64,000 nt of DNA from Gemmatimonadota bacterium (GTDB lineage Bacteria > Gemmatimonadota > Gemmatimonadetes > Gemmatimonadales > GWC2-71-9). A model generated the notes under the pieces. The model was not told where the DNA came from. It did no database searches and worked only from the letters and a program-made list of their open reading frames with translations. The stretch covers positions 1-64,000 of the forward strand of contig JANYKV010000066.1 in assembly GCA_025358055.1 (NCBI GenBank), read 5' to 3'. Below are positions 19,254 to 36,818 of the stretch, piece by piece. Each line of letters starts with the position of its first letter. Position 1 is the stretch's first letter. The translations under genes were made by a program, and so were the position numbers.

Positions 19254-21455
19254 GTGTGTTCCAATTCTGCCTCTCGCCCGCAGCCGAGACGAGGCGGCCC
19301 CCGCCTGTCCGAAACTTTGGCAGTGGGGGGGCTGCTGCGTCTCGCGATCGTAGCGCTCACACTGAGTGCCACCGTGGCGCTGCCAACAAACATCCAGGCT
19401 CAAGAGTCCGGCCTCATAGTGAGCGCTCTCGACTTTAAGGGCAATCATGCGCTTGATGCGACCGTGCTTGCCGCCGCGATTGCCACGACAAATTCCGGCT
19501 GGTTCGCTCGGTCCAAACTGGTCCGCTGGCTCGGACTCGGTGCTAAGCGGCGCTTTGCCGAGCAGGAGTTTCGACGCGATGTCGCTCGCCTGCGCCTGTT
19601 CTACCAGATCAATGGATATCTTGACGTCAAGGTGGATACCACCGTGGTGCGCACCGACCGCGATGTGTACATCACTTTTCGGATCACCGAAGGTGAGCCG
19701 GCCCGGGTTACCCGACTAGATGTGTCGGGTCTGGACTCGCTTCCTGAGGGAGAGAAGATCCTGCAGGATTTGCCCCTCAAGGTAGGCGCGCCGTTCAACC
19801 GCACTCTGTTGGCCACCACCGGCGACACCATCGCGGACCGCTTGCATGACCGCGGGTTCCCCACCGCCGCCGTGTTCCTCAAGGGGCGCCAGGTCAATCG
19901 GGAGGCGCGCACGGCGGAACTCGACCTCCAGGTCAGTCTCGGGGCCCCCGCGGTGATCGGGTCCGTCCGCGTCGGGGGTACGAACCGGGTCGACACGAGC
20001 TTTGTTCGGTCGCTGCTCGCCACCGCGCCGGGGCGCATGTATCGGGCCCAGGATCTATTCCAGAGTCAACGCAATCTCTACCGCACCGAGCTCTTTCGCT
20101 TTGCATCGGTGACGATCGACACTTCCATTTTCCGCCCTGGCTCCGGTACCGTACCCTTGGTGGTTCAGGTGACAGAAGGACCGTTCCACCGAGCCCGCGG
20201 GTCGGTTGGCTACGGGAGTAGCGACTGCTTCCGGGGTGGCTTGGGGTGGACGGCGCGAAATTTTGCCGGGAGTGGCTGGGTCTTGGATGTCGGCGGCCAG
20301 GTGTCGAAGGTCGGGGCGGGCAAGCCGTTCGACTTTGGCGCCGAACGTTCGTGGCTCTGTAGTCAGCTCAAGCAAGACTCGATCGGATCCTCGCACGCCA
20401 ACTACAATCTCACGACCTCGATGCGGCGTCCGGCCTTCCTGAGCCCCGACAATACGATCGCGCTTTCCTTGTTCGCGGAGCGGGCGTCCGAGTTCAAAGT
20501 CTATCTCCGGGAAGACATCGGCGGCAGCGTCAGCCTAACGCGTGAAACCCAGTCCCGGACGCCGCTCACCTTCACGTATCGGTTGGCGTACGGATCGACG
20601 ACAGCAAACTCGGTGATCTTCTGCGCATTTTTCAACGCGTGTACCAGCAGTGACATCGACAACCTGAAACGCAAACGCCTCCTCGCGACGCTCGGCGCCA
20701 CCGCAATCCGCCAACGCTCGAACAACCTGTTGGACCCAAGCCGCGGGTCGGTACTGAGCGCCGAGGTGACCCATAGTTCCCGATTCATCGGTTCCTCCCA
20801 GCTCTCCCAATTCACCCGATTGGTGGGCGATGCCGCGTGGTATCGTCCGCTGAGTGGGAACATCGTGTTCAGCTGGCATGTACGCGCCGGCGTCATTTTC
20901 GCACCCCAGGTTTCGATCACGCAGGGCGCAGCCAATTTCGTACCCCCCGAGCAACGCTTCTACGGTGGCGGGCCGAACGACGTGCGGGGGTACGACCGGA
21001 ACGAATTGGGCCCCGTGGTCTACGTGGTGCCGGATAGCTTGGTAGTTCGCGGCACTGGTGGCACCGTGACAGTGGCGGACAAGGACGTGCGGGTCGCCGC
21101 TACGGGTGGCAACACGACCGTTGTGGGGAACGTGGAACTTCGGGTGCCGTCGCCGATCTTCGGCAACCGCATGCGGCTGGCGGCTTTCGTCGATGCCGGC
21201 GGCGTCTGGGAGCGCGGTGACCCCGGCTCGTCGGCCGCCGTGATTCGGGTGACGCCCGGGATCGGCATTCGCCTCGGAACCGCGCTTGGTCCGGCCCGGC
21301 TGGATGTAGCCTACAATCCGTATCCCCTCGAACGCGGAACCTTGTACGGGAGCCACTCCAACGGCGACCTGGTGGTGCTGCGCGAGGGGTACCGGATCGG
21401 CGAGGGCCGAGCCCACCGCTACACGTTCCATTTCACCATCGGCCAGGCCTTCTGA
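19254..21455 (+). CDS. Omp85-family outer membrane protein, TamA-like
   Basis: 733 aa from GTG 19254; GTG 19323 is an alternative start because the first 20 residues are basic and untypical. A signal peptide ends near NIQAQES. About three POTRA domains follow (roughly residues 50-155, 155-240 and 240-315), then a 16-strand-type barrel with the loop-6 motif DVRGYDRNELGP. Three POTRAs and the directly coupled tamB partner (TGATG junction at 21455) favour TamA over BamA. It would insert or move envelope material into the outer membrane together with TamB. Confidence 0.88.
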   Translation: MCSNSASRPQPRRGGPRLSETLAVGGLLRLAIVALTLSATVALPTNIQAQESGLIVSALDFKGNHALDATVLAAAIATTNSGWFARSKLVRWLGLGAKRRFAEQEFRRDVARLRLFYQINGYLDVKVDTTVVRTDRDVYITFRITEGEPARVTRLDVSGLDSLPEGEKILQDLPLKVGAPFNRTLLATTGDTIADRLHDRGFPTAAVFLKGRQVNREARTAELDLQVSLGAPAVIGSVRVGGTNRVDTSFVRSLLATAPGRMYRAQDLFQSQRNLYRTELFRFASVTIDTSIFRPGSGTVPLVVQVTEGPFHRARGSVGYGSSDCFRGGLGWTARNFAGSGWVLDVGGQVSKVGAGKPFDFGAERSWLCSQLKQDSIGSSHANYNLTTSMRRPAFLSPDNTIALSLFAERASEFKVYLREDIGGSVSLTRETQSRTPLTFTYRLAYGSTTANSVIFCAFFNACTSSDIDNLKRKRLLATLGATAIRQRSNNLLDPSRGSVLSAEVTHSSRFIGSSQLSQFTRLVGDAAWYRPLSGNIVFSWHVRAGVIFAPQVSITQGAANFVPPEQRFYGGGPNDVRGYDRNELGPVVYVVPDSLVVRGTGGTVTVADKDVRVAATGGNTTVVGNVELRVPSPIFGNRMRLAAFVDAGGVWERGDPGSSAAVIRVTPGIGIRLGTALGPARLDVAYNPYPLERGTLYGSHSNGDLVVLREGYRIGEGRAHRYTFHFTIGQAF

Positions 21456-24400
21456 TGCGTCACTGGCTGGCCCGTTTCGTTTTTGTCACCCTCTGCGGGG
21501 CCGTAGCGACGGTCCTCGGAACCACCGCAGCACTCACCATATCCTCCCCGGGACGCGCCTTGCTGGCGCGCCTCTTTTCCCAGGAATCGAACCGGCTGGT
21601 GCGAGGGAGCGTCCGGATCAGCGCGATCTCCGGCAACTTTCTTTCGCATCTCGAATTGGACAGCGTCGTGGTGCGCGATACCGCCGGAGCGGTCCTGGCT
21701 CGGATTCCTCGGCTGGAGGTGGGCTTTAGCTTGGCGAGGCTGTTGACGGGACGAGTCATTCTCACCCGCCTGCACGCCATCGCTCCCGAGATTCAAATCA
21801 TCAAGCACCGCCTCGGGCGACTCAATTTCCAGGAGATATTCCGCCTCGGCGAAAGCGCAGGGAACGGTCCGGGCACGATGGTCGTCTTTCGCGACGTGAT
21901 GATCGAACGAGGCCGCGTGGTGATCCGCACGCCCTGGGACTACTCCACTGAACTCCGGTCGCCCGCCTCGCGCGACTCCGCTCTTACCAACGATCGGGCC
22001 TCTCCGGGCAAGCGGATCGAGCGGGGTTCGGAGGGATTGGAACAGATTCGCCAAATCGACAGCCTCACCGCGCACTTCGCGTTGATGCGCGTTTCCACCC
22101 CGGATCACCTTCCACTGTCCGTCGATATCGATTCGCTCCGGGCCGATGTGAGCGATCCGCCGGTTCACGTGCGGCGGCTGGAGGGAACTGTGCTGACCGG
22201 CGGGGACAGTCTTCTTTTCTCTCTCAAACGAGCCGAATTGCCCCGCACGCTGGCGAGCGGGAAAGGCCGGGTAACCTGGCCGCGAGACACGGTGCTCTAC
22301 GATTTCCGCATGAATGTGCCGCAAGCCAGTCTCGTCGACCTCCGGTGGATCACCCCCAAATTCCCCGATTTTACCGGTCGAGGCCGAGTCATAGCCCGTT
22401 CCGAAAACGGGACGCGTACCAATTTCGACCTCCGTGATTTACATCTCGGAGACTCTCGGAGCCACCTCGACGGAGCACTGATCGCGATTTCGGATCGGCG
22501 GCGCGGATTGGGGTTCAAGAATTTGAGTCTGGCGCTCCAAACGCTCGATCTCGATGCGGTCCGTCCTTTTCTCGACACCCTTCCTCTGGCGGGCCAGATC
22601 TCGGGCACTCTTCGGGCTGAGGGTTTCAATGATGGAATGGAGGTGAATCTCGGGTGGGACTTCGACGATGCCCGAGTCGCCGGCGGTGCGCGGAGCCACC
22701 TTGAGCTGGACGGCCGAGTGATACTCTCCGGCCCGCAGGGATTCGTGTTCCAACGGGCGCAACTCACCAACACAAACCTCGACTTGCGGACCGTGCGCCT
22801 CATCGTTCCGTCCGTCATTCTTCATGGGCGGATGGGTCTGAACGGGACGCTTGAGGGACCGTGGCACAACGTGGTTTTTGCTGGTACTGCTTCGCATCGG
22901 GATGGGGGGCTGCCGACCAGTGAGGTCAACGGAGTCGTTCACCTCGATAGCCGACTGGCAATTCTCGGTCTCAACCTTGATCTGACGGTCGATTCGCTGG
23001 CGTTCGACGGTCTGCGACCCAGCTTTCCCACGCTGACGGCCCAAGGTGCCTTGCGGGGCACCCTCCGGCTCGATGGGACTCTTGAGCAGGCTACGGTGGA
23101 CGCCGACCTCCGCGGTGAATTAGGCCACGTGTCGGTCCGTGGTGGCATGGGTCTTCAAGGGCCGAATTGGGGGGCGGAGGCGCTGCGACTCGAGTTCGAC
23201 AGCCTGGATCTCTCGGCGCTTCGCGGTGCCGGACCGCATACCGCTCTCCGGGGCTCCGTGGTCGCAACCGGCCAACTCGACTCCCTCGCCGCGCCACATG
23301 GGGAGTTGGATTTCGCGCTCCACGACGGATTCATCCGGGAGTTCCGATTCGATTCGCTGAACGGCCGCTTGCGAGTGCGGGACAGCCTTCTGACCGTGGA
23401 CACCGTCGCAATGCATTGGGCTCATGGCACCGCCAGTGCCTCGGGGACACTGGGATGGGTGGCCCCGCACCAGGGCCTGCTTCGGGTGCGCGCCACCGCT
23501 ACCTCGCTCCAGGCGTTCGACTCCGTTGCCCACGCCCTCACTGGAATCCCAGTCGATACGTCCGCCCATCAGCCTCTCGATGGGGCGGTCGAGGCGAAGA
23601 TAGACTTGAGCGGCTCGCTCGATTCGCTGGCCTCGGTCGATACGGTCGTCGCCACCAATGTCCGGTGGGAAACGTACTCGAGCCCCTCGATCGTGGGGGC
23701 TCTGCGATGGGGTGGAGGCCGGCCCGCCGCGATGATGGCGTCCATCGAGGCGGACACCCTCGCCATAGGGGGATTGTTGCTCACGGGCCTATCGGCTCAT
23801 GGGCAGGGGTCCAGCGATTCTCTGCACGTGGAGGGGCGAGCGCAGGGAGGAACTGCCTCCCGAGTACAGGGCGCGGCGACCTTGGTGCGCGGCCCAGCCG
23901 GCCAATCGCTGACCCTCGAAGGCCTGCAGGTGGTGCTGCCTCGGCACACCTGGTCCTTGGAGCGGCCGGCTCGCCTCATCCAACACGACTCCACGGTGCA
24001 GATCAGAGCCCTCACCTTTTCGACCGGCGATGGCGCGGGCAGCATCGAAGTGACCGGTAGTGTGGGGCGCGGAGCTGCCGGGGGGGCGGGCGCCGGCGAA
24101 GCCGATAGCCTCACGATCCATGCGCTTGGGGTCGACCTCCAGGACCTCTATGGTCTGCTGCAGCAGGATACGGCCGGCGTGGCCGGCGCGGCCGCGCTGG
24201 ATTTGCGGCTTACGGGGACCCGGGCAATGCCGGTCATTCGTGGCAGCGGGTCGATCACCGGTCCGGTATTCGGTGATTTCCGCGGTCCGTTGGTGCGTGC
24301 CGCATTCAATTACGCGGATTCGACTTTAGACGCGAATCTGAGCCTTTGGAGAACCGGGCGTGCCTCTCTCGAAATCGAGGTGCGCCTGCCCCTCGACCTC

Positions 24401-25891
24401 GCCCTTCGCTCCGTCGACCGGCGGCAACTCCCCGGCAATCTCCAGGTTCGCGCTCGGGCCGACAGCGTCGACCTCGCGGTGCTTGAGGCCTACACCCCCA
24501 ACATTCGCCGGGTGAGCGGCAGCTTCTCGGCGGACGCCCGGGTCGAAGGCACTTGGGCATCTCCGCAATTGGACGGGTTCATTGCGCTCGACAACGGATA
24601 CGTCAACGTCCCGGCGCTCGGAGTCCGCTATGGTCCCATCTACGGCCGGATTGGGATGCGCGGGGACTCGCTGCGGGTGGATAGTCTCGTCATCAAGGCC
24701 GGCGAGGGGAGCATGCGGGTGGAGGGTGGAGTCCGCATGGCTCGGCTGACCACCCCCGTTCTCGGCCTCGAACTCAAGCCGTCGAACTTCTTAGTGGTGA
24801 ACGTCCGCGAATTCCTCACGCTGCAGGCGTCGGGGTCGCTCCAGCTGACCGGGACAACGCTGCACCCGGTGTTGCGCGGCCACGGAACCGCGAACAATAC
24901 CGTCGTTTATTTCGCCGACTTGATCACCAAGAACATTGTGAATCTGGAGGATCCGGCCAACGCGGACTTGGTCGATACCCTCGAACTGCGCCACCAAGGC
25001 TTGGGGGCCGCATTCCAGAGCCGGTTCCTCGATTCCCTGGCCATTCAGAATCTCGACCTTCGAGTCGGCAACGAAGTGTGGCTGCGTTCGAATGAAGCCA
25101 ACATTCAGTTGGAAGGAAGCATCATCGTCAACAAACAGCACCGGGCCTATCGGCTGGACGGCACACTCAACACGCCCCGGGGCATCTACACGCTGAAAAT
25201 CGGGCCCCTGAGCCGCGCCTTTAGCGTGGAACGGGGAACAGTGCGATACTTTGGGACCCCGGATTTGAATGCGGATCTGGACATTCAGGCTCGGCACGTC
25301 GTCCAGACCGCGGATCGAACCGAAGAAGGCTTTCCCGTCATCGCGAAGCTTACCGGCACGTTGTTGGTACCAAAATTGTCGCTCGAGAGCGGGCCGCCCA
25401 ATCCACCGATGTCCGAGCGCGACCTGATTTCTCTGTTGATCGTCGGCCGAACCTCCGGCAACTTGCTCAGCAGCGGGAACGATGCTCCGTTACAGGCCGG
25501 TCTCGCGTATCTCTCCGGTGCATTGTCGAGTGAACTCCAGCGAACGCTGATCACGGATCTTGGCGTTCCGGTGGACCTCATCGAGATCCGCTCACCATTC
25601 TCGACCAGTGGCGTACTGAGTGCGAGCACCGGCCTCACCCAGCTCGCGGCAGGATGGCGGATCGGGAGCAAATGGTTCGTGACGGTCAATGCCGGTTTCT
25701 GCCCCGCGATCGGCCAAATCGACGCCCGGAATTTCGGAGCGAGTTTGGAATATCGGTTGAGCCGGGATTGGCGGCTGCAGGCGAATGCGGAACCGATTCA
25801 AAGTTGTGATGCGGCGCGACCCGCGGACGCGCTGGCAGCGTTGCGCCGATACCAGTTTGGTGCCGACATCCGGTGGGAACGGGAGTATTGA
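21455..25891 (+). CDS. TamB-like translocation/assembly protein (DUF490)
   Basis: 1478 aa from ATG 21455, overlapping the upstream stop by one base. An N-terminal signal-anchor helix (about residues 8-30) is followed by more than 1200 residues of repeating beta-strand sequence, as in AsmA/TamB bridge proteins. The C-terminal DUF490 region contains LDADLDIQARH-type strands, RDLISLLIVGRTSG and a final strand-rich LSRDWRLQANAEP segment. TamB spans the periplasm and is thought to move phospholipid or barrel proteins to the outer membrane. The coupled TamA-like gene supports the call. Confidence 0.92.
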   Translation: MRHWLARFVFVTLCGAVATVLGTTAALTISSPGRALLARLFSQESNRLVRGSVRISAISGNFLSHLELDSVVVRDTAGAVLARIPRLEVGFSLARLLTGRVILTRLHAIAPEIQIIKHRLGRLNFQEIFRLGESAGNGPGTMVVFRDVMIERGRVVIRTPWDYSTELRSPASRDSALTNDRASPGKRIERGSEGLEQIRQIDSLTAHFALMRVSTPDHLPLSVDIDSLRADVSDPPVHVRRLEGTVLTGGDSLLFSLKRAELPRTLASGKGRVTWPRDTVLYDFRMNVPQASLVDLRWITPKFPDFTGRGRVIARSENGTRTNFDLRDLHLGDSRSHLDGALIAISDRRRGLGFKNLSLALQTLDLDAVRPFLDTLPLAGQISGTLRAEGFNDGMEVNLGWDFDDARVAGGARSHLELDGRVILSGPQGFVFQRAQLTNTNLDLRTVRLIVPSVILHGRMGLNGTLEGPWHNVVFAGTASHRDGGLPTSEVNGVVHLDSRLAILGLNLDLTVDSLAFDGLRPSFPTLTAQGALRGTLRLDGTLEQATVDADLRGELGHVSVRGGMGLQGPNWGAEALRLEFDSLDLSALRGAGPHTALRGSVVATGQLDSLAAPHGELDFALHDGFIREFRFDSLNGRLRVRDSLLTVDTVAMHWAHGTASASGTLGWVAPHQGLLRVRATATSLQAFDSVAHALTGIPVDTSAHQPLDGAVEAKIDLSGSLDSLASVDTVVATNVRWETYSSPSIVGALRWGGGRPAAMMASIEADTLAIGGLLLTGLSAHGQGSSDSLHVEGRAQGGTASRVQGAATLVRGPAGQSLTLEGLQVVLPRHTWSLERPARLIQHDSTVQIRALTFSTGDGAGSIEVTGSVGRGAAGGAGAGEADSLTIHALGVDLQDLYGLLQQDTAGVAGAAALDLRLTGTRAMPVIRGSGSITGPVFGDFRGPLVRAAFNYADSTLDANLSLWRTGRASLEIEVRLPLDLALRSVDRRQLPGNLQVRARADSVDLAVLEAYTPNIRRVSGSFSADARVEGTWASPQLDGFIALDNGYVNVPALGVRYGPIYGRIGMRGDSLRVDSLVIKAGEGSMRVEGGVRMARLTTPVLGLELKPSNFLVVNVREFLTLQASGSLQLTGTTLHPVLRGHGTANNTVVYFADLITKNIVNLEDPANADLVDTLELRHQGLGAAFQSRFLDSLAIQNLDLRVGNEVWLRSNEANIQLEGSIIVNKQHRAYRLDGTLNTPRGIYTLKIGPLSRAFSVERGTVRYFGTPDLNADLDIQARHVVQTADRTEEGFPVIAKLTGTLLVPKLSLESGPPNPPMSERDLISLLIVGRTSGNLLSSGNDAPLQAGLAYLSGALSSELQRTLITDLGVPVDLIEIRSPFSTSGVLSASTGLTQLAAGWRIGSKWFVTVNAGFCPAIGQIDARNFGASLEYRLSRDWRLQANAEPIQSCDAARPADALAALRRYQFGADIRWEREY

Positions 25892-25893
25892 CG

Positions 25894-26796
25894 GTGGTGC
25901 GTGCCCTGTTGATTACCAATCTGGTTGCGGCGAGAACGACGCCGTCCGCGGTGTACGCGGTGTCGGGGTTGCTCCGATACTCCGGGTGGTCGGTCGAGGT
26001 GGCCGAAACTCGGGGGCCCGGCGACGCGCGCCGCCTGGCTGAGTCCGCCGTCTCGGACCGGTTTGACGTCGTGATCGTATTTGGCGGCGATGGCACCACG
26101 ATGCAAGCGGCGGCCGCGCTCGTGGGGACCGACGTCGCGTTGGGTGTCATTCCCGGCGGCACCGGCAATTTGTTGGCCGGGAATCTACGGATACCCGCTT
26201 CTCCGGTCCGCGCTGCCGAGGCGCTCGCTCACGGTCGTCGCCGGCGACTCGACCTGGGACGGGTGGAGCGGCCCGAGGGCACCCAATACTTCGCGGTGGC
26301 TTGCGGGGCTGGAATGGACGCGAGAGTCATGGCCCAGACGTCGAGCGATCAGAAGCGAAAATGGGGCATCGGGGCCTACCTGGCCACGGTGCTTCGCCTG
26401 ATTCCCGAGGTCAGGCGGGTGCCCCACACGATCACGATCGATGGCGTGACCATTGAGACTGCCGCGACGGTGGTGCTCGTCGCCAACTGCCGTGAGGTGA
26501 TTCCGCCGATCGTGCGGCTCCATCAGGATATTTCCCCCGAAGATGGCTGGCTCGATGTCGTGATTGCGGGGGCGGGAAACCTTTGGGAGAGTGCCAGAAC
26601 CATGTACCAATTCATGCGAGAGATCCCCGATGCGAGCGATGGGCCCAGGCACCTATGGTACGCCCGCGGACGTGAGATCACCGTCTCTTCGGATCCGCAG
26701 CAGCCTCTGGAGATCGACGGTGAATCGGACTGGACTACGCCATTCACCGCTTCGGTCGTGCCTGCGGCGATCGATGTGATGGTGCCGATCGGATGA
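25894..26796 (+). CDS. Lipid kinase, diacylglycerol-kinase family (YegS/BmrU-like)
   Basis: 300 aa from GTG 25894, with GGGAG at 25881-25885 and 8 nt spacing. The nucleotide-binding motif VIVFGGDGTTMQAAA and the following GVIPGGTGNLLAGNL are the hallmark of the DAGK catalytic domain. The C-terminal beta-sandwich ends with a PLEIDGES stretch, as in YegS. The family phosphorylates diacylglycerol, sphingosine-like or other lipids at the inner membrane. It starts 2 bp after tamB and overlaps the histidine kinase gene by 4 nt (ATGA), so it is in one operon with them. Confidence 0.9.
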   Translation: MVRALLITNLVAARTTPSAVYAVSGLLRYSGWSVEVAETRGPGDARRLAESAVSDRFDVVIVFGGDGTTMQAAAALVGTDVALGVIPGGTGNLLAGNLRIPASPVRAAEALAHGRRRRLDLGRVERPEGTQYFAVACGAGMDARVMAQTSSDQKRKWGIGAYLATVLRLIPEVRRVPHTITIDGVTIETAATVVLVANCREVIPPIVRLHQDISPEDGWLDVVIAGAGNLWESARTMYQFMREIPDASDGPRHLWYARGREITVSSDPQQPLEIDGESDWTTPFTASVVPAAIDVMVPIG

Positions 26797-28844
26797 GCCC
26801 AATCGTCGATCGAGCGGACCAGCTCTTCGATCTCGCCCGGGAGTTCGCTTCGGCCGCTTCCGCCGAAGCGGTGATCCGGGCCGCGCTCGCCGCGGTTCTG
26901 GAGGCCTCGGGCGGGTCCGGCGCGTTGCTGGTCGGTCTGCCCGAGATGACGGGCACCGCGGTGGTAACGCTCGGTGCATTGGGTGAGATCCCGCAAGGTC
27001 ATCGAGTCGGCGATACGTGCCTGACCGATTCGGTGGCCGCGCGCGTCGTGCGTACCGGCGCAGCCGAGTTTGTGAGCGATCTCGACCATGAACTCATAGT
27101 GCCGCGCCCGGTCGCGACCAAGCTGCGGCCGGGATATGTCGTTCCGGTCCGTTCCGGCTCGGATGTCGTAGCGTCGCTAACGATCTGGACCGCGGCGGTG
27201 CCCGCCCCCGATGCCGAGGAGGTCCGATTCGTCCAGGCGGTCGCGGATCACCTCGGCGTCGCGCTTGATTCGCTATTCCGGCAAAGCCTGCTGCAGCGCC
27301 GCCTGGCCCAAGTCGACGCGCTCGGACGGGTGGCTCATGCACTCACGTCCGCCGACGATGCGGAACGCACGATGCAGTTCGTGATTTCGGAGGGCCTCCG
27401 GGTCTTCGAGGCGCAGCGGGCCGCGATTTTCCTACTGGAACCCGCGGGACAGGCTAGCTGTCTCGTCTCATTCGGCCTCTCACATCACTATCTCGAGCTC
27501 CACACGGCGCATTTTGATCAGACCGCCGGGGGACAGGCGGTGCGCGCTTCCACCCCGTGGTACTCTCTGGATGCCCGAGCCGACGCCGAACCGGTTTTGC
27601 GCGCTGCCGTCGAGGCGGATGGGTTCCGTGCCGTCGCCATGTTGCCTCTGCTGTTTGCCGGCGAGCCCATCGGCGCCTTGGCCTTCTACTTTGATCGGGC
27701 GTTCCGCCTGGCCGGGGAAGAGCGCAGACTGGCAATGGCGTTTGCCGATCAAGCGGCACTCGCGATTGGCAAGAGTCGCTTGCTGGACTTGGTGACCAGG
27801 ATCAAGCGTGAATGCCAATCTGCCTACGATTGTGCCGAACGCGGGATGGCGGTGATTGACGACCGGGGCCGAATTCTTCGAGCCAATCGCTTTGTCGCGG
27901 AGCTGGCGGGAGTGGACGTCCGCCAACTTCCGGGGTACGATCTGCGAGGCCTGTTTGCGGGTTGGCCGGCTGAGGCCGGGGTGGCGGCCGGTAAGGTGCC
28001 CCGGGAGCTCCAACCCACGTTGGTCGAGGGGAAGGGCGGCCGGTCGCTCGTGGTGCGGGTCACCCGGCTCGACTCCCGGTCCTCGGTGCTGACGATTGAT
28101 GATCTGACGGAAGAATTGGCGCTGCGAGAGCGGATTCATCACACCGAACGCATGGCTGCGCTCGGGCGCGTGGTGATCGGTGCGGTGCATGAGGTCAACA
28201 ATCCCCTGACGGCCATCTCGGCGATCGCTCAAGGCCGCCTGTTGGAAGCGAATCTGGATCGTGATACGACCGAGGGCTTTGAGGAGATTCGGCGTGAGGC
28301 GCTCCGCGCCAGTCGCATCATCAACACCCTGTTGGCCTTTGCCCGCCACCAGCCACTCCGTGGGGCCGAGACCGATCTCAATGTCCTGGCGTCCGAGTCC
28401 GCGAGAGTTGAGAATCTGATGCAGGGTGACGGGGAGATCGAAGTCACCCTCGCGCTGGATGCTACTCTGCCGCTGATTCTCGCCGATGCGGATCAACTCC
28501 GGCAGGTGTTGACGAACCTGGTTCGAAATGCCACGTACTCCATGCGCGTTTCCGCGGAACGGCGGCTGACGCTTCGAACCTGGCAGACGGCTGGGCACGT
28601 GCATTGTGCGGTCCAGGACACCGGTCCCGGCATTCCCCCGGAGGCGTTGTCCCGTATTTTCGAACCGTTCTTCACGACGAAGAGTGTGGGAGAGGGAACG
28701 GGGCTCGGCCTCGCTTTGTCGGAGGGGATCGTCCGCGCCCATGGAGGAGAGCTAAGCGGGGCCAACAACCCCGAGGGTGGTGCCATTTTCCAGTTCGCGT
28801 TGCCACGCACTCCGATTCTCGGAGCGAGGGGATTGCATGACTGA
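26793..28844 (+). CDS. GAF-GAF-PAS sensor histidine kinase
   Basis: 683 aa from ATG 26793. There are two GAF-like domains (about residues 5-160 and 178-330), a short PAS-like region (345-440), then HisKA with the H-box VHEVNNPLTAIS (His466). The HATPase domain has LVRNATYSM, DTGPGIPP, FEPFFTTK and GTGLGLALS. No membrane segment is seen, so it should be cytosolic and sense a small ligand or redox/gas signal through GAF. The next gene overlaps by 8 nt and encodes an NtrC-like protein whose receiver lacks the phosphoacceptor, so the real target may be elsewhere. Confidence 0.93.
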   Translation: MSPIVDRADQLFDLAREFASAASAEAVIRAALAAVLEASGGSGALLVGLPEMTGTAVVTLGALGEIPQGHRVGDTCLTDSVAARVVRTGAAEFVSDLDHELIVPRPVATKLRPGYVVPVRSGSDVVASLTIWTAAVPAPDAEEVRFVQAVADHLGVALDSLFRQSLLQRRLAQVDALGRVAHALTSADDAERTMQFVISEGLRVFEAQRAAIFLLEPAGQASCLVSFGLSHHYLELHTAHFDQTAGGQAVRASTPWYSLDARADAEPVLRAAVEADGFRAVAMLPLLFAGEPIGALAFYFDRAFRLAGEERRLAMAFADQAALAIGKSRLLDLVTRIKRECQSAYDCAERGMAVIDDRGRILRANRFVAELAGVDVRQLPGYDLRGLFAGWPAEAGVAAGKVPRELQPTLVEGKGGRSLVVRVTRLDSRSSVLTIDDLTEELALRERIHHTERMAALGRVVIGAVHEVNNPLTAISAIAQGRLLEANLDRDTTEGFEEIRREALRASRIINTLLAFARHQPLRGAETDLNVLASESARVENLMQGDGEIEVTLALDATLPLILADADQLRQVLTNLVRNATYSMRVSAERRLTLRTWQTAGHVHCAVQDTGPGIPPEALSRIFEPFFTTKSVGEGTGLGLALSEGIVRAHGGELSGANNPEGGAIFQFALPRTPILGARGLHD

Positions 28845-30180
28845 TTCCGTACTGTTGATCGATGCCGATGCCGCGGCGCTTCGGAGTGTCGGTACTCACT
28901 TCGAACAACTCGGCTACGACGTGATGCGTGAGTTGAGCGCCGAAGCGGCCCTCGGGACCTGGGACTGGGTGCGGCCCGAGGTCGTGATTTTGAGCCAGGG
29001 CCTAGCAGGTGGTCCATCGCTCGACGTCATCGCCCAATTTCAGCAGCACGGCGCTGCCGTCATTCTGGTCACCAACGGTGATGCGGCCCTCGGGCTGCAG
29101 GCGTTGCAGGTCGGAGCCGAGTACGTGGTTCCGGCCTCGGCGGAGAACACGTTGCTGGCCGCGGTGACGGCGCGAGTCGCCGCGAAGGTTCGACTGCGCC
29201 GCTTGCTCGAAACGATGCTGGCGGAGACTAAGTCGGAGCACGCCGCCGCTTTTCTCGGCAGCTCGCCTGCAATGCGAGAGGTGGCGAGCCAGGTCTCTCT
29301 CCTGGCCCAAAGCGATCGGACGACCGTCCTCATCACGGGCGAGTCGGGCACCGGGAAGTCATGGCTCGCGCGACTGATTCACGACCGCAGTAACCGGAGC
29401 CGTCTGCCGTTCTTTCGGGTTCGCTGCAGTACCGCGCCCGGGATCAATCTCGACCCGGTGCTCTTCGGCCAGGAACGGGGCGCGACTCCCGACGCGACCG
29501 AGCGGCGTAAGGGGATGTTCGAGCTCGCCGACGGCGGAACCCTTTTCTTGCGCGACGTCTCCGATCTGCCTCGAGAGCTGCAGCCCAAGCTCTTGAAGGC
29601 GCTCGAAACGCGGAGCTTCCGCCGCCTCGGGGGCTCTCGAGATTTCACTTGCGATACCCGGCTGGTCGCGGCGACCGAACGGAGCCTCGCCGAGGAAGTC
29701 GAGGCCGAGCGATTCCGCGAGGATCTCTTTTACCGGCTTAACGTGGTGCAGGTCACTCTGCCCGCGGTCAAAGATCGCAGCTGGGAGGACCGGCAAACCC
29801 TGATCTCCACTATTCACGAATCTCTGTTGCTCGATTTCCCCTCCGGCCCTTCGGTCGTTTCGCCCGAGGCGATCGAGCGCCTCCTTGCGCACGGTTGGCC
29901 GGGCAACGTCCAGGAGATTCGCAATGTTCTCCAGCGCTGTCTGCTCCTGGCTCGGGGGCAGCCGATCATCGGAGTCGAACATCTGCCGGGCGAGTTTCGG
30001 GCTCGCCCCGGATTGGGGGACCGCCGCCATACTCCCATGAGTTTGGACGACCTGGAGCGGCAGCACATCGATCGCACCCTCCGCTACCATGGCGGGAATC
30101 GAACCCGCGCCGCGCGCGAGCTGGGCATTTCCCGCGCGACGTTAATCAACAAGATCAAGCTGTACAGCATCACCGATTAG
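28837..30180 (+). CDS. Degenerate NtrC-like protein: pseudo-receiver, AAA+ without GAFTGA, Fis-type HTH
   Basis: 447 aa from ATG 28837, overlapping the kinase stop as ATGACTGA. Domain order is that of NtrC regulators. The receiver keeps Asp9 and Asp11, but the phosphoacceptor is Ser53 (VVILSQGL) and the conserved Lys is replaced (YVVPAS, 96-101). In the AAA+ domain the P-loop GESGTGKS (168-175) is intact. The GAFTGA loop reads GATPDA (215-220), Walker B reads LFLRD instead of LFLDE (236-240), and the sensor Asn is Glu281. Arg294 and Arg300 of the finger segment and the Fis HTH (419-443) are kept. It probably binds DNA without sigma-54 activation. Confidence 0.9.
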   Translation: MTDSVLLIDADAAALRSVGTHFEQLGYDVMRELSAEAALGTWDWVRPEVVILSQGLAGGPSLDVIAQFQQHGAAVILVTNGDAALGLQALQVGAEYVVPASAENTLLAAVTARVAAKVRLRRLLETMLAETKSEHAAAFLGSSPAMREVASQVSLLAQSDRTTVLITGESGTGKSWLARLIHDRSNRSRLPFFRVRCSTAPGINLDPVLFGQERGATPDATERRKGMFELADGGTLFLRDVSDLPRELQPKLLKALETRSFRRLGGSRDFTCDTRLVAATERSLAEEVEAERFREDLFYRLNVVQVTLPAVKDRSWEDRQTLISTIHESLLLDFPSGPSVVSPEAIERLLAHGWPGNVQEIRNVLQRCLLLARGQPIIGVEHLPGEFRARPGLGDRRHTPMSLDDLERQHIDRTLRYHGGNRTRAARELGISRATLINKIKLYSITD

Positions 30181-30189
30181 GAGGCCCGC

Positions 30190-30381
30190 ATGACGATCGA
30201 GAAAGCAAAAGGCGGCCGGGATGCGATGATTTGTCGCGCGTGTGGCAACGAGGAGCGGGCTTCCGAGGGGTATCCCTGTGCGGATTGCGGAACCTTCCTC
30301 TGCCTCATCTGTACGTTCCGAGGCGTGACATTCTGCACGGCATGCTCCGCGAAACATGCCGTCCCTCCCTCGACTCTATGA
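30190..30381 (+). CDS. Small eight-cysteine putative zinc protein
   Basis: 63 aa. The ATG at 30190 is supported by AGGAGG at 30179-30184. Four CxxC pairs occupy residues 15-52 (CRAC, CADC, CLIC, CTAC), enough for two zinc sites in a cross-brace or double-ribbon arrangement. The first 12 residues are charged and the last 10 are flexible. No named family was recognised. It follows the NtrC-like gene by 9 bp and overlaps the HAD gene by 4 nt, so it is translated from the same operon. Possible roles are a protein or nucleic acid adaptor. Confidence 0.75.
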   Translation: MTIEKAKGGRDAMICRACGNEERASEGYPCADCGTFLCLICTFRGVTFCTACSAKHAVPPSTL

Positions 30382-31076
30382 ACCGGAAGCTGGTGCTGTT
30401 CGATATCGATGGGACGATTCTCCTGAGTGCCGGCGCCGGCCGGCGGGCCATCGTTGCCGCGATCGCGGAGGAGGTACCGCGTCCGGAGGAGCTCACGAAG
30501 GTTCGCTTTGATGGGAAGACCGACCCCCAAATTGTGCACGAACTTCTCGCGGTGGGTGGCGATTTGCGACCAGTCACGCCGGACCGGATGACCCGACTTC
30601 TCACTCGATACGTGAATCACCTTCAGCGTGAGCTCGCGCGTCCGGATCATCAGACGACAGTCATGCCTGGGATCCTGGCTCTTTTCGATGCGCTCGAGCG
30701 AGAGGCCGGGGTGGTTCTCGGACTACTGACTGGCAATGTCGTGCCGGGCGCTACGCTGAAATTGCGTTCGGCGAGCATCGATCCCGCTCGCTTTCGCGTC
30801 GGTGCGTTCGGTTCCGACCACGCCGACCGATCGGCCCTCCCGCCGATCGCCTCGGAACGTGCCGAGCCGCTCTTCGGCCGCCGCCCGCGAGGTCACGAGG
30901 TGGTCATCATCGGCGACACGCCGTCAGACGTGACCTGCGGCCTCGGGATCGAGGCCCGCGCCGTGGGGGTCGCGACCGGCTCGTATCCGATGGCCGAATT
31001 GGCCGCCGCCGGGGCCTACCGGGTATTCGGCGATTGCAGCGATGTGGCAATGGTGTTGGAGGCCATCCTATCGTAG
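30378..31076 (+). CDS. HAD-superfamily phosphatase, phosphoglycolate-phosphatase-like
   Basis: 232 aa from ATG 30378, which overlaps the upstream stop as ATGA. Motif I is LFDIDGTIL (Asp9, Asp11), motif II LLTGN, and motif IV VVIIGDTPSDV. The alpha-helical cap between residues 18 and about 95 places it in subfamily IA. The usual motif III Lys is not obvious, with RRPRGHEV preceding motif IV, so it may be supplied by an Arg. It hydrolyses some small phosphorylated compound; the substrate is unknown. Confidence 0.85.
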   Translation: MNRKLVLFDIDGTILLSAGAGRRAIVAAIAEEVPRPEELTKVRFDGKTDPQIVHELLAVGGDLRPVTPDRMTRLLTRYVNHLQRELARPDHQTTVMPGILALFDALEREAGVVLGLLTGNVVPGATLKLRSASIDPARFRVGAFGSDHADRSALPPIASERAEPLFGRRPRGHEVVIIGDTPSDVTCGLGIEARAVGVATGSYPMAELAAAGAYRVFGDCSDVAMVLEAILS

Positions 31077-31762
31077 CCGAAACCCTGCCTGAGCTGGGGC
31101 CGTATCTCGGTCGGCTCGCCGAGCCAGAGCATCGTCGGCTGTCTGACGCCTGGTCGCTGGACGAGCTCCGTCTCTCGGTCGTTTCGGCCTTGTTTGAGCG
31201 AGCGACGACGGCCCGCGGATTTCTCGAGTCGGGAAACCTCGTCGCGGCGCGATCCACGCTTGGTGCGGAGGCCTGGCTGGAAGTGTGGAACCACGCGGTG
31301 CAATCCGCGACCGTCCTTACGCTCTCGGAGCTCCGTCGGCGCCTCGTCCGCGCCGGTGCCGAATCAGGGATGCCCCACCGCCTCGTGGGCCACGAGCTTC
31401 CGTCACCGGAGGATGAACGCATCTTGGCGGCGAAGTTGAGTAGCGCTGGGATTCCGTTGGAGGACTTTCTCGCGGAGCCTGATGCGGATCGCTCCTGGCC
31501 GGATGCGCTGCGCCTGTCCGCGAACGCCCTCGAAACCTCATGGCTCGGCCTCGAATCCATCGTTCGGCATGAACTGGCCCGCTACGTCCCGACGATCGAA
31601 CGACTCCGAGCCTGGAAACGCCCCACCGCACTCCTCTGGGTTATCACCTTACTCATGGCGGCCTCCGCGATCTACCTCGGTCTGGTCCTCGGCGGCTACC
31701 TCCCCACACCAGGAATTCTGGCTGGCTTCAAGGCCTGGTGGTGGACCCTGCCATGGCCGTAA
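31034..31762 (+). CDS. Hypothetical protein with one C-terminal membrane helix
   Basis: Up to 242 aa. The only in-frame conventional start is TTG 31034, inside the end of the HAD gene, with a weak ribosome site, so the start is uncertain. The body is helical and charged (LSVVSALFERATTARGFL, TLSELRRRLVRAG, LETSWLGLESIVRHELARYV). Residues about 203-228 form a hydrophobic anchor. Codons are GC-rich in third position, as in neighbours, so it is a real gene. No family recognised. It overlaps acpS by 10 nt. Confidence 0.65.
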   Translation: MQRCGNGVGGHPIVAETLPELGPYLGRLAEPEHRRLSDAWSLDELRLSVVSALFERATTARGFLESGNLVAARSTLGAEAWLEVWNHAVQSATVLTLSELRRRLVRAGAESGMPHRLVGHELPSPEDERILAAKLSSAGIPLEDFLAEPDADRSWPDALRLSANALETSWLGLESIVRHELARYVPTIERLRAWKRPTALLWVITLLMAASAIYLGLVLGGYLPTPGILAGFKAWWWTLPWP

Positions 31763-36281: not shown

Positions 36282-36725
36282 ATGCATTATCTCGTCCGTA
36301 CCGCTCTCGCCGTTGCCGGCGCGGGTCTGCTGGTGGGGTCACGGTTCCAGGCTCTGTCCGACGGTGTCGAGGTCGTGATCCTCAACGGCCCCGACGCCGG
36401 CACCTACAAGTCGGTGTCGGCGGAAACTATATGCGCCCACTTCAAGGTGCAGAAATTCTCCACAGCGACGTGGAGTGATACGGACATCAAGGACCCGAAG
36501 AAGATGTCCGCCGCAGGCATCAAAGTAGACAACCCGGAGCTAGCGGGCCCGAAGAAGGGCGACGTGGAGATCAGCTTCGGGAAGAGGGCACGCGCGTATG
36601 TGGCCTCGCAGGAGCCGGTCACGATGACCGCGAAGGGCAAAGGGGCGGTCTTTGTGTTCGAGGGCACGATCAAGGGGACCAAGATGAAGGTGACCGGGAC
36701 GTGCAAGGTGGTCGAGGAGTTGTAA
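36282..36725 (+). CDS. Small secreted hypothetical protein
   Basis: 147 aa from ATG 36282; AGGAGA at 36267-36272 supports this start over the longer in-frame reading. Residues 1-25 look like a signal peptide (VRTALAVAGAGLLVG). The mature part is lysine-rich and strand-prone, with two cysteines (ETICAHFK and GTCKVVEEL) that could pair. No family recognised. It is probably co-transcribed with the preceding gene in the accessory pocket. Confidence 0.7.
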   Translation: MHYLVRTALAVAGAGLLVGSRFQALSDGVEVVILNGPDAGTYKSVSAETICAHFKVQKFSTATWSDTDIKDPKKMSAAGIKVDNPELAGPKKGDVEISFGKRARAYVASQEPVTMTAKGKGAVFVFEGTIKGTKMKVTGTCKVVEEL

Positions 36726-36818
36726 GCCGCTCGGACCGCTCGGCCGCCTCACTCCTAAACCGAAGAATGGGCTTGAGGGTTTTCGTTCGCCACGTACTCG
36801 TCGCCATACAACCTCCGT

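Follow-up and report, generated by a model that had tools for sequence, protein, structure and literature searches.

How can a regulator built as a sigma-54 activator be kept by its host once the residues for phosphorylation, ATP hydrolysis and sigma-54 contact are gone? This question is raised by an NtrC-type response regulator encoded in a stretch of 64,000 nucleotides (the window; contig JANYKV010000066.1, positions 1 to 64,000) from the genome of a Gemmatimonadota soil bacterium (GCA_025358055.1). The altered residues are shared by a clade of ten genomes from five genera, the losses among orthologues are associated with that of the sigma-54 contact loop, and purifying selection is focused on the Fis-type helix-turn-helix (HTH) domain. 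At the level of sequence, this supports a loss of the phospho-switch, of ATP hydrolysis and of sigma-54 contact in a protein predicted to have retained DNA binding and, probably, ATP binding. The reading that we hold to be the more probable one is that of a phosphorylation-independent, non-hydrolysing DNA-binding regulator that derives from a sigma-54 activator and would act at sigma-70-type promoters, ATP, if bound, being a structural ligand.

Domains and residues of the regulator

The features of the regulator gene are as follows (all on the + strand).

28837..30180, +, NtrC-type regulator of 447 residues with receiver, AAA+ and Fis HTH domains; degenerate receiver, ATPase and sigma-54 loop (translation, Pfam, alignment)
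28849..29133, +, pseudo-receiver (Response_reg 26.4 bits, under the Pfam cut-off of 30.2)
28993..28995, +, Ser53 (AGC) replacing the phospho-accepting Asp (alignment, codons)
29134..29136, +, Ala100 replacing the conserved receiver Lys (alignment; Lys gone in 10/10 clade members)
29338..29358, +, Walker A motif or P-loop GESGTGK, residues 168-174 (G168-K174), intact (alignment; K174 kept in 10/10 clade members)
29479..29496, +, sigma-54 contact loop GATPDA, residues 215-220, degenerate; ancestral GAFTDA (alignment)
29542..29556, +, Walker B LFLRD, residues 236-240, Asp239 to Arg in 10/10 clade members (alignment, codons)
29677..29679, +, Glu281 replacing the sensor-I Asn (alignment, codons)
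29713..29736, +, arginine-finger segment FREDLFYR, residues 293-300, kept (alignment; R300 in 10/10 clade members)
30043..30162, +, Fis-type HTH, residues 403-442, under the strongest constraint in the protein (Pfam, dN/dS, site conservation)

Translation of 28837-30180 gives 447 codons in an uninterrupted frame, in which Pfam recognizes Sigma54_activat (179 bits), an AAA lid and HTH_8 (53.5 bits). Among the acidic residues of the receiver, D9 and D11 are retained and the middle acid is A10 in the alignment with orthologues. An earlier note on this DNA, made from the letters alone, had listed Ser53, the missing receiver Lys, GATPDA, LFLRD and Glu for the sensor Asn, together with a kept P-loop, arginine-finger segment and HTH, and each of these was recovered by translation, Pfam and alignment.

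Compared with group I bacterial enhancer-binding proteins (the NtrC-family sigma-54 activators), the protein lacks the phospho-Asp and Lys, a GAFTGA-type loop and the Walker B DE. It shares with them the Walker A motif, the arginine-finger segment, the Fis HTH and common descent, the latter on the basis of sister-genus orthologues in which receiver, Walker B and GAFTDA are all intact. Its N-terminal domain has a receiver fold without the phospho-Asp, according to alignment and predicted fold, and thus belongs with pseudo-receivers and aspartate-less receivers; having lost the GAFTGA loop, the protein also falls among loop-less NtrC-type regulators. The Pfam scan gave no match to the FleQ N-terminal domain PF06490. 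In the AlphaFold2 model all three domains are folded, with a mean predicted local distance difference test (pLDDT) of 85.

A clade in which the losses are shared

Orthologues were collected by whole-genome protein searches in the family, order and class of the window genome, with a best identity of 58-61%; the database records of the nearest relatives are metagenome-assembled genomes of Gemmatimonadales. One or two sequences per genome (154 in all) were aligned with outgroups, one fragment was dropped to leave 153, and trees were built with the trait columns excluded. The window protein groups with those of genera g20, g33, g37 and g39 in the clade of ten genomes, which has a Shimodaira-Hasegawa-like approximate likelihood ratio test (SH-aLRT) support of 99 in the large tree, and 100 bootstrap and 97 SH-aLRT support in the careful tree without trait columns.

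All ten members carry Arg for the Walker B Asp239 and Arg for Lys259, none retains Lys100, Thr218 or Asn281, and the phospho-Asp is gone in nine. The Arg239 codon is CGC in nine genomes and CGG in the tenth, and five synonymous codons are in use for Arg259; these amino acids are therefore being maintained while their codons vary.

The earlier note had proposed aligning homologues to see whether the substitutions are shared, and had named two things that would speak against it. One, sequencing error at several positions, is excluded along with chance, since Arg239 is common to ten genomes of five genera. The other, close homologues with canonical residues, does exist: the sister genera g11, g14, g15, g17, g28 and g38 have complete receivers, the Walker B DE and GAFTDA or GAYTDA. 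Canonical residues thus occur in orthologues at 57-61% identity, so that the losses are clade-specific, and the canonical relatives place them at the base of the five-genus clade instead of contradicting them.

The remaining clade member, genome G097 (locus L148, genus g39), has Asp in the phospho-site column together with Arg at the positions of both the receiver Lys and the Walker B Asp. It is possibly an intermediate, or the Asp may be misaligned.

Ancestral loop and order of losses

Outside the losses, the loop of this group reads GAFTDA, sometimes GAYTDA. GAFTDA is also found in related regulators of Desulfobulbaceae, KSB1, Ignavibacteriales and Bacteroidetes. With an identical GAFTDA loop, the NorR variant G266D forms open complexes with sigma-54 in vitro (PMC2941729), and GAFTDA is among the Desulfovibrio loop variants expected to be functional (PMC4641369); for VfmH, one report leaves its functionality open (PMC10714721). 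Being ancestral in the group and present in other phyla, the Gly-to-Asp change at loop position 5 was rejected as a loss, and the informative changes in the window protein are therefore Phe to Thr and Thr to Pro. Both fall where published substitutions are damaging: the loop Thr contacts sigma-54 and only Tyr substitutes for Phe (PMC2941729), and a Thr-to-Pro change is cited in PMC4641369 as having inactivated NifA of Bradyrhizobium.

The loop is intact in 70 of the 153 orthologues, and all 70 keep the phospho-Asp, the Lys and the Walker B Asp. Among the 83 loop-lost proteins, 13 are without the phospho-Asp, 10 without the Lys and 17 without the Walker B Asp, so that both the phospho-Asp and the Walker B Asp are missing only where the loop is missing too. 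Parsimony gives 12 changes for the loop, six for the Asp, seven for the Walker B Asp and one for the Lys; it was preferred to an irreversible-loss count, in which the 19 loop losses are inflated by one GAFSEA sequence of family f2. Loop-lost branches make up 54% of the branch length, and under a simple null the probability that all losses fall on them is 0.024 for the Asp and 0.013 for the Walker B Asp; Fisher values for the same association ignore relatedness and are not usable as probabilities. In family f2, the loop is lost in 44 of 47 proteins by deletion or scrambling, with Asp and Lys kept and Walker A and B kept with few exceptions. Regulators of this group therefore persist without sigma-54 contact.

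Loss of sigma-54 itself was rejected as the cause. The rpoN gene, for which the earlier note had recommended a search, is present in the window genome, which is therefore not simply a genome without sigma-54. It was also found in 77 of 80 genomes tested, including all 67 of high quality, and the three without a match (G067, G082 and G098) are incomplete.

The transition from sigma-54 activator to sigma-70 regulator has hitherto been deduced from few unconnected examples. Here, one orthologous regulator at mostly one syntenic locus presents all stages in one order, namely GAFTDA-intact proteins, f2 proteins that have lost the loop and kept receiver and ATPase, and the clade in which all are lost. 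The order of loss thereby becomes testable with existing genomes and cloned proteins. For many orthologues an annotation as sigma-54-dependent response regulator would mislead, though the window protein far exceeds the Sigma54_activat cut-off.

Selection on the domains

The ratio of nonsynonymous to synonymous substitution rates (dN/dS) was calculated in g37, the densest part of the clade. In its four closest pairs it is 0.00-0.07 for the HTH, 0.15-0.24 for the receiver and 0.07-0.19 for the AAA+ domain; the canonical g14 gives values of about 0.03-0.18 for every domain. Of the 23 HTH sites that are fixed in loop-intact relatives, all ten clade members retain 18, and no site is missing from every one of them; for the receiver, only 8 of 50 such sites are kept throughout. 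Compared with the other clade members, the window protein is 83% identical over the HTH, 57% over the AAA+ domain and 35% over the receiver. The central claim of the earlier note, a loss of switch, hydrolysis and sigma-54 contact with DNA binding retained, thus gains from the monophyletic clade, the domain-wise dN/dS and the uniform Asp-to-Arg change, which point to it at the sequence level; its counting of the loop's Gly-to-Asp change among the losses does not stand.

Comparison with known regulators

Loop-less NtrC proteins and Asp-less receivers are each already known. The NtrC proteins of Rhodobacter and Caulobacter are loop-less and act at sigma-70 promoters, that of Rhodobacter needing ATP binding but not hydrolysis (PMC10274813). 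R. capsulatus and Caulobacter NtrC resemble the window protein in their receiver-AAA+-Fis HTH order, lost loop, kept P-loop and orthologues elsewhere that are sigma-54 activators. However, in Caulobacter NtrC the phospho-Asp is present and both Walker motifs, A and B, are required (PMC10274813), whereas the window protein is also without the phospho-Asp, the Lys and the Walker B Asp.

Among solved structures, the best match of the predicted model is NtrX of Brucella (PDB 5m7n/5m7o/5m7p). The two proteins have the same domain order, at about 28% identity. Brucella NtrX is likewise without GAFTGA, and NtrX is a phosphorylated receiver protein, in contrast to the window protein, which has no phosphorylation site. 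Caulobacter NtrX also lacks GAFTGA (PMC10274813).

Vibrio VpsR (PDB 7v2b; PMC10274813) and Pseudomonas FleQ are proteins of NtrC type whose regulation does not involve Asp phosphorylation and which act at sigma-70 promoters, either wholly or in part; both respond to cyclic di-GMP. With its phosphorylation-incompetent receiver, FleQ controls a sigma-70 promoter and needs no ATP hydrolysis to do so (PMC10723142); unlike the window protein, it keeps GAFTGA and its ATPase. Aspartate-less receivers make up about 4-6% of receivers (PMC12632262). The window protein shares with them a receiver fold without phospho-Asp and Lys, but it has also lost the ATPase and the sigma-54 contact, and graded relatives exist. 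No description of the uniform Walker B Arg combination in a multi-genus clade or of the one-order graded series was found in the Gemmatimonadota response-regulator and sigma-54 literature, as covered by titles and abstracts with subscription papers mostly outside.

A second loop-less sigma-54-type protein is encoded in the window genome (L262, contig C8:34500-38500, match 36319-36810). Its loop is deleted (ELFGTPGADRENV) and its Walker B reads LVLQE; its receiver retains the Asp and the KP motif.

The adjacent histidine kinase

The gene 5' of the regulator encodes a histidine kinase.

26793..28844, +, GAF-GAF-PAS-HisKA-HATPase_c histidine kinase with intact catalytic motifs (Pfam, orthologue search)
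28188..28190, +, phospho-accepting His466 of the kinase (residue check)

Pfam and His466 bear out what had been noted before, an intact GAF-GAF-PAS kinase whose gene overlaps that of the regulator by exactly 8 nt. In the family of the window genome a kinase orthologue occurs in five genera (g1, g26, g28, g32 and g38), each time adjoining the regulator. At E 1e-45, none was found in the four other genera of the clade. The window genome is the sole clade member with the kinase and the sole kinase-bearing member of its family whose receiver is Asp-less. The regulator had been described as coupled to the kinase; this suits the present genome, but for the clade the coupling is not conserved, because four of its five genera have no detectable orthologue, and the kinase was for the same reason rejected as a conserved partner within it.

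Mode of action

The course of events that we propose begins with a Gemmatimonadales two-component sigma-54 activator of the conventional kind. In the lineage of the window protein, the sigma-54 contact loop would have been lost, and the change of the Walker B Asp to Arg and the loss of the receiver phosphorylation site would have come after it or at the same time. The Fis HTH may still hold ancestral operator sites, from which the protein would act on sigma-70-type promoters as activator or repressor. It would be neither switched by Asp phosphorylation nor able to hydrolyse ATP, and ATP at the intact P-loop would probably be a fixed structural ligand for assembly. We infer the promoter class, the role of ATP and the conservation of targets from Rhodobacter and Caulobacter NtrC and from FleQ; control may be exerted by the abundance of the protein or by a ligand or partner.

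Several points weigh against this view. The branches of the clade are long, and the order of losses rests on few events (six for the Asp, P 0.024; seven for the Walker B Asp, P 0.013). dN/dS was measured in g37 only and the window's genus is a single genome, so that selection on the exact lineage is deduced from sister genera. The intact kinase still adjoins and overlaps the regulator gene here, which fits a continued non-phosphoryl coupling. No operator or regulon was found for the regulator, and as no target promoter was identified, action at sigma-70 promoters is argued by analogy only.

That the overlapping kinase still controls the regulator, by direct and phosphorylation-independent contact with the pseudo-receiver, is an unlikely alternative. 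In its favour, the genes overlap by 8 nt, the kinase is intact and retained although the receiver is not phosphorylatable at the usual site, and allosteric coupling of sensor kinases is discussed for non-canonical regulators (PMC12632262). However, the other four clade genera keep the regulator without a detectable kinase orthologue, and the receiver is the least conserved domain, with 36% identity between clade genera. The retained fold, arginine-finger segment and P-loop, along with a dozen other Sigma54_activat proteins encoded in the genome, could instead suit a dominant-negative or heteromeric subunit that inserts into the hexamers formed by another of the cell's sigma-54 activators, poisoning or tuning them. 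We regard this as improbable, given that conservation is highest in the HTH, that loop-less proteins are widespread and that the locus shows no conserved partner.

Decay of a functionless gene, to which the several missing motifs and the long branch might point, is largely refuted and can be given very little credence. The frame is open over 447 codons, dN/dS is 0.08-0.21 in the closest g37 pairs, Arg239 is uniform despite synonymous codon change, the HTH is nearly unchanged and the gene is kept in five genera at a syntenic locus. Scarcely any likelihood is left, finally, for constitutive activation of sigma-54 promoters via the unusual loop. The genome does have rpoN and the ancestral GAFTDA is sigma-54 competent in NorR (PMC2941729), but the loop Thr that contacts sigma-54 and the Phe replaceable by Tyr only (PMC2941729) are both changed, the former to the Pro cited as inactivating in NifA (in PMC4641369), Arg stands in place of the Walker B Asp that hydrolysis requires, and -24/-12 sites at the locus are not above chance.

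A bolder and doubtful proposal is that Arg239 is no scar but a functional stand-in for the Mg-binding Asp, which would hold the AAA+ domain permanently in a nucleotide-bound, non-hydrolysing state, the assembled protein serving as a static DNA-organising scaffold on conserved operators. If so, the clade would represent a defined class of pseudo-enhancer-binding proteins that evolved stepwise after the loss of sigma-54 contact.

Locus neighbourhood

The other genes near the regulator are the following.

21455..25891, +, TamB-like protein; its gene overlaps that of the lipid kinase, same strand
25873..26796, +, YegS/DAGK-type lipid kinase
30190..30381, +, small zinc-ribbon protein directly 3' of the regulator, conserved next to it

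The neighbourhood is conserved and partly envelope-related, in the order TamB-like protein, lipid kinase, regulator, zinc ribbon, HAD hydrolase, AcpS and FTR1. Most relatives of the family have no histidine kinase gene at this place, the lipid kinase lying immediately upstream of the regulator. The zinc-ribbon protein (63 residues) is present in 96 of 102 genomes at roughly 60-80% identity across the family; it matches no Pfam family above its cut-off and no NCBIfam entry. Its candidacy as dedicated partner of the regulator is weakened, because those 96 genomes include regulator-less ones.

A 242-residue protein encoded at 31034-31762 of the window, between the HAD and AcpS genes, is syntenic in most of the family and has no Pfam match at E 1. 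Many relatives (for instance L158, L161 and L131) have, between the zinc-ribbon and HAD genes, an additional gene that is SH3/NlpC-P60 peptidase-like by eye only; it is absent from that place in the window genome.

A scan of the locus for -24/-12 promoters of sigma-54 yielded no more sites than expected from shuffled sequence. Perfect sites are conserved in family f7 alone, about 4.7-4.8 kb upstream of the regulator; there, three genomes (L234, L235 and L236) carry TGGCAC-N5-TTGC at nearly the same place, with a palindrome-like TGTTC...GAACA nearby in one of them.

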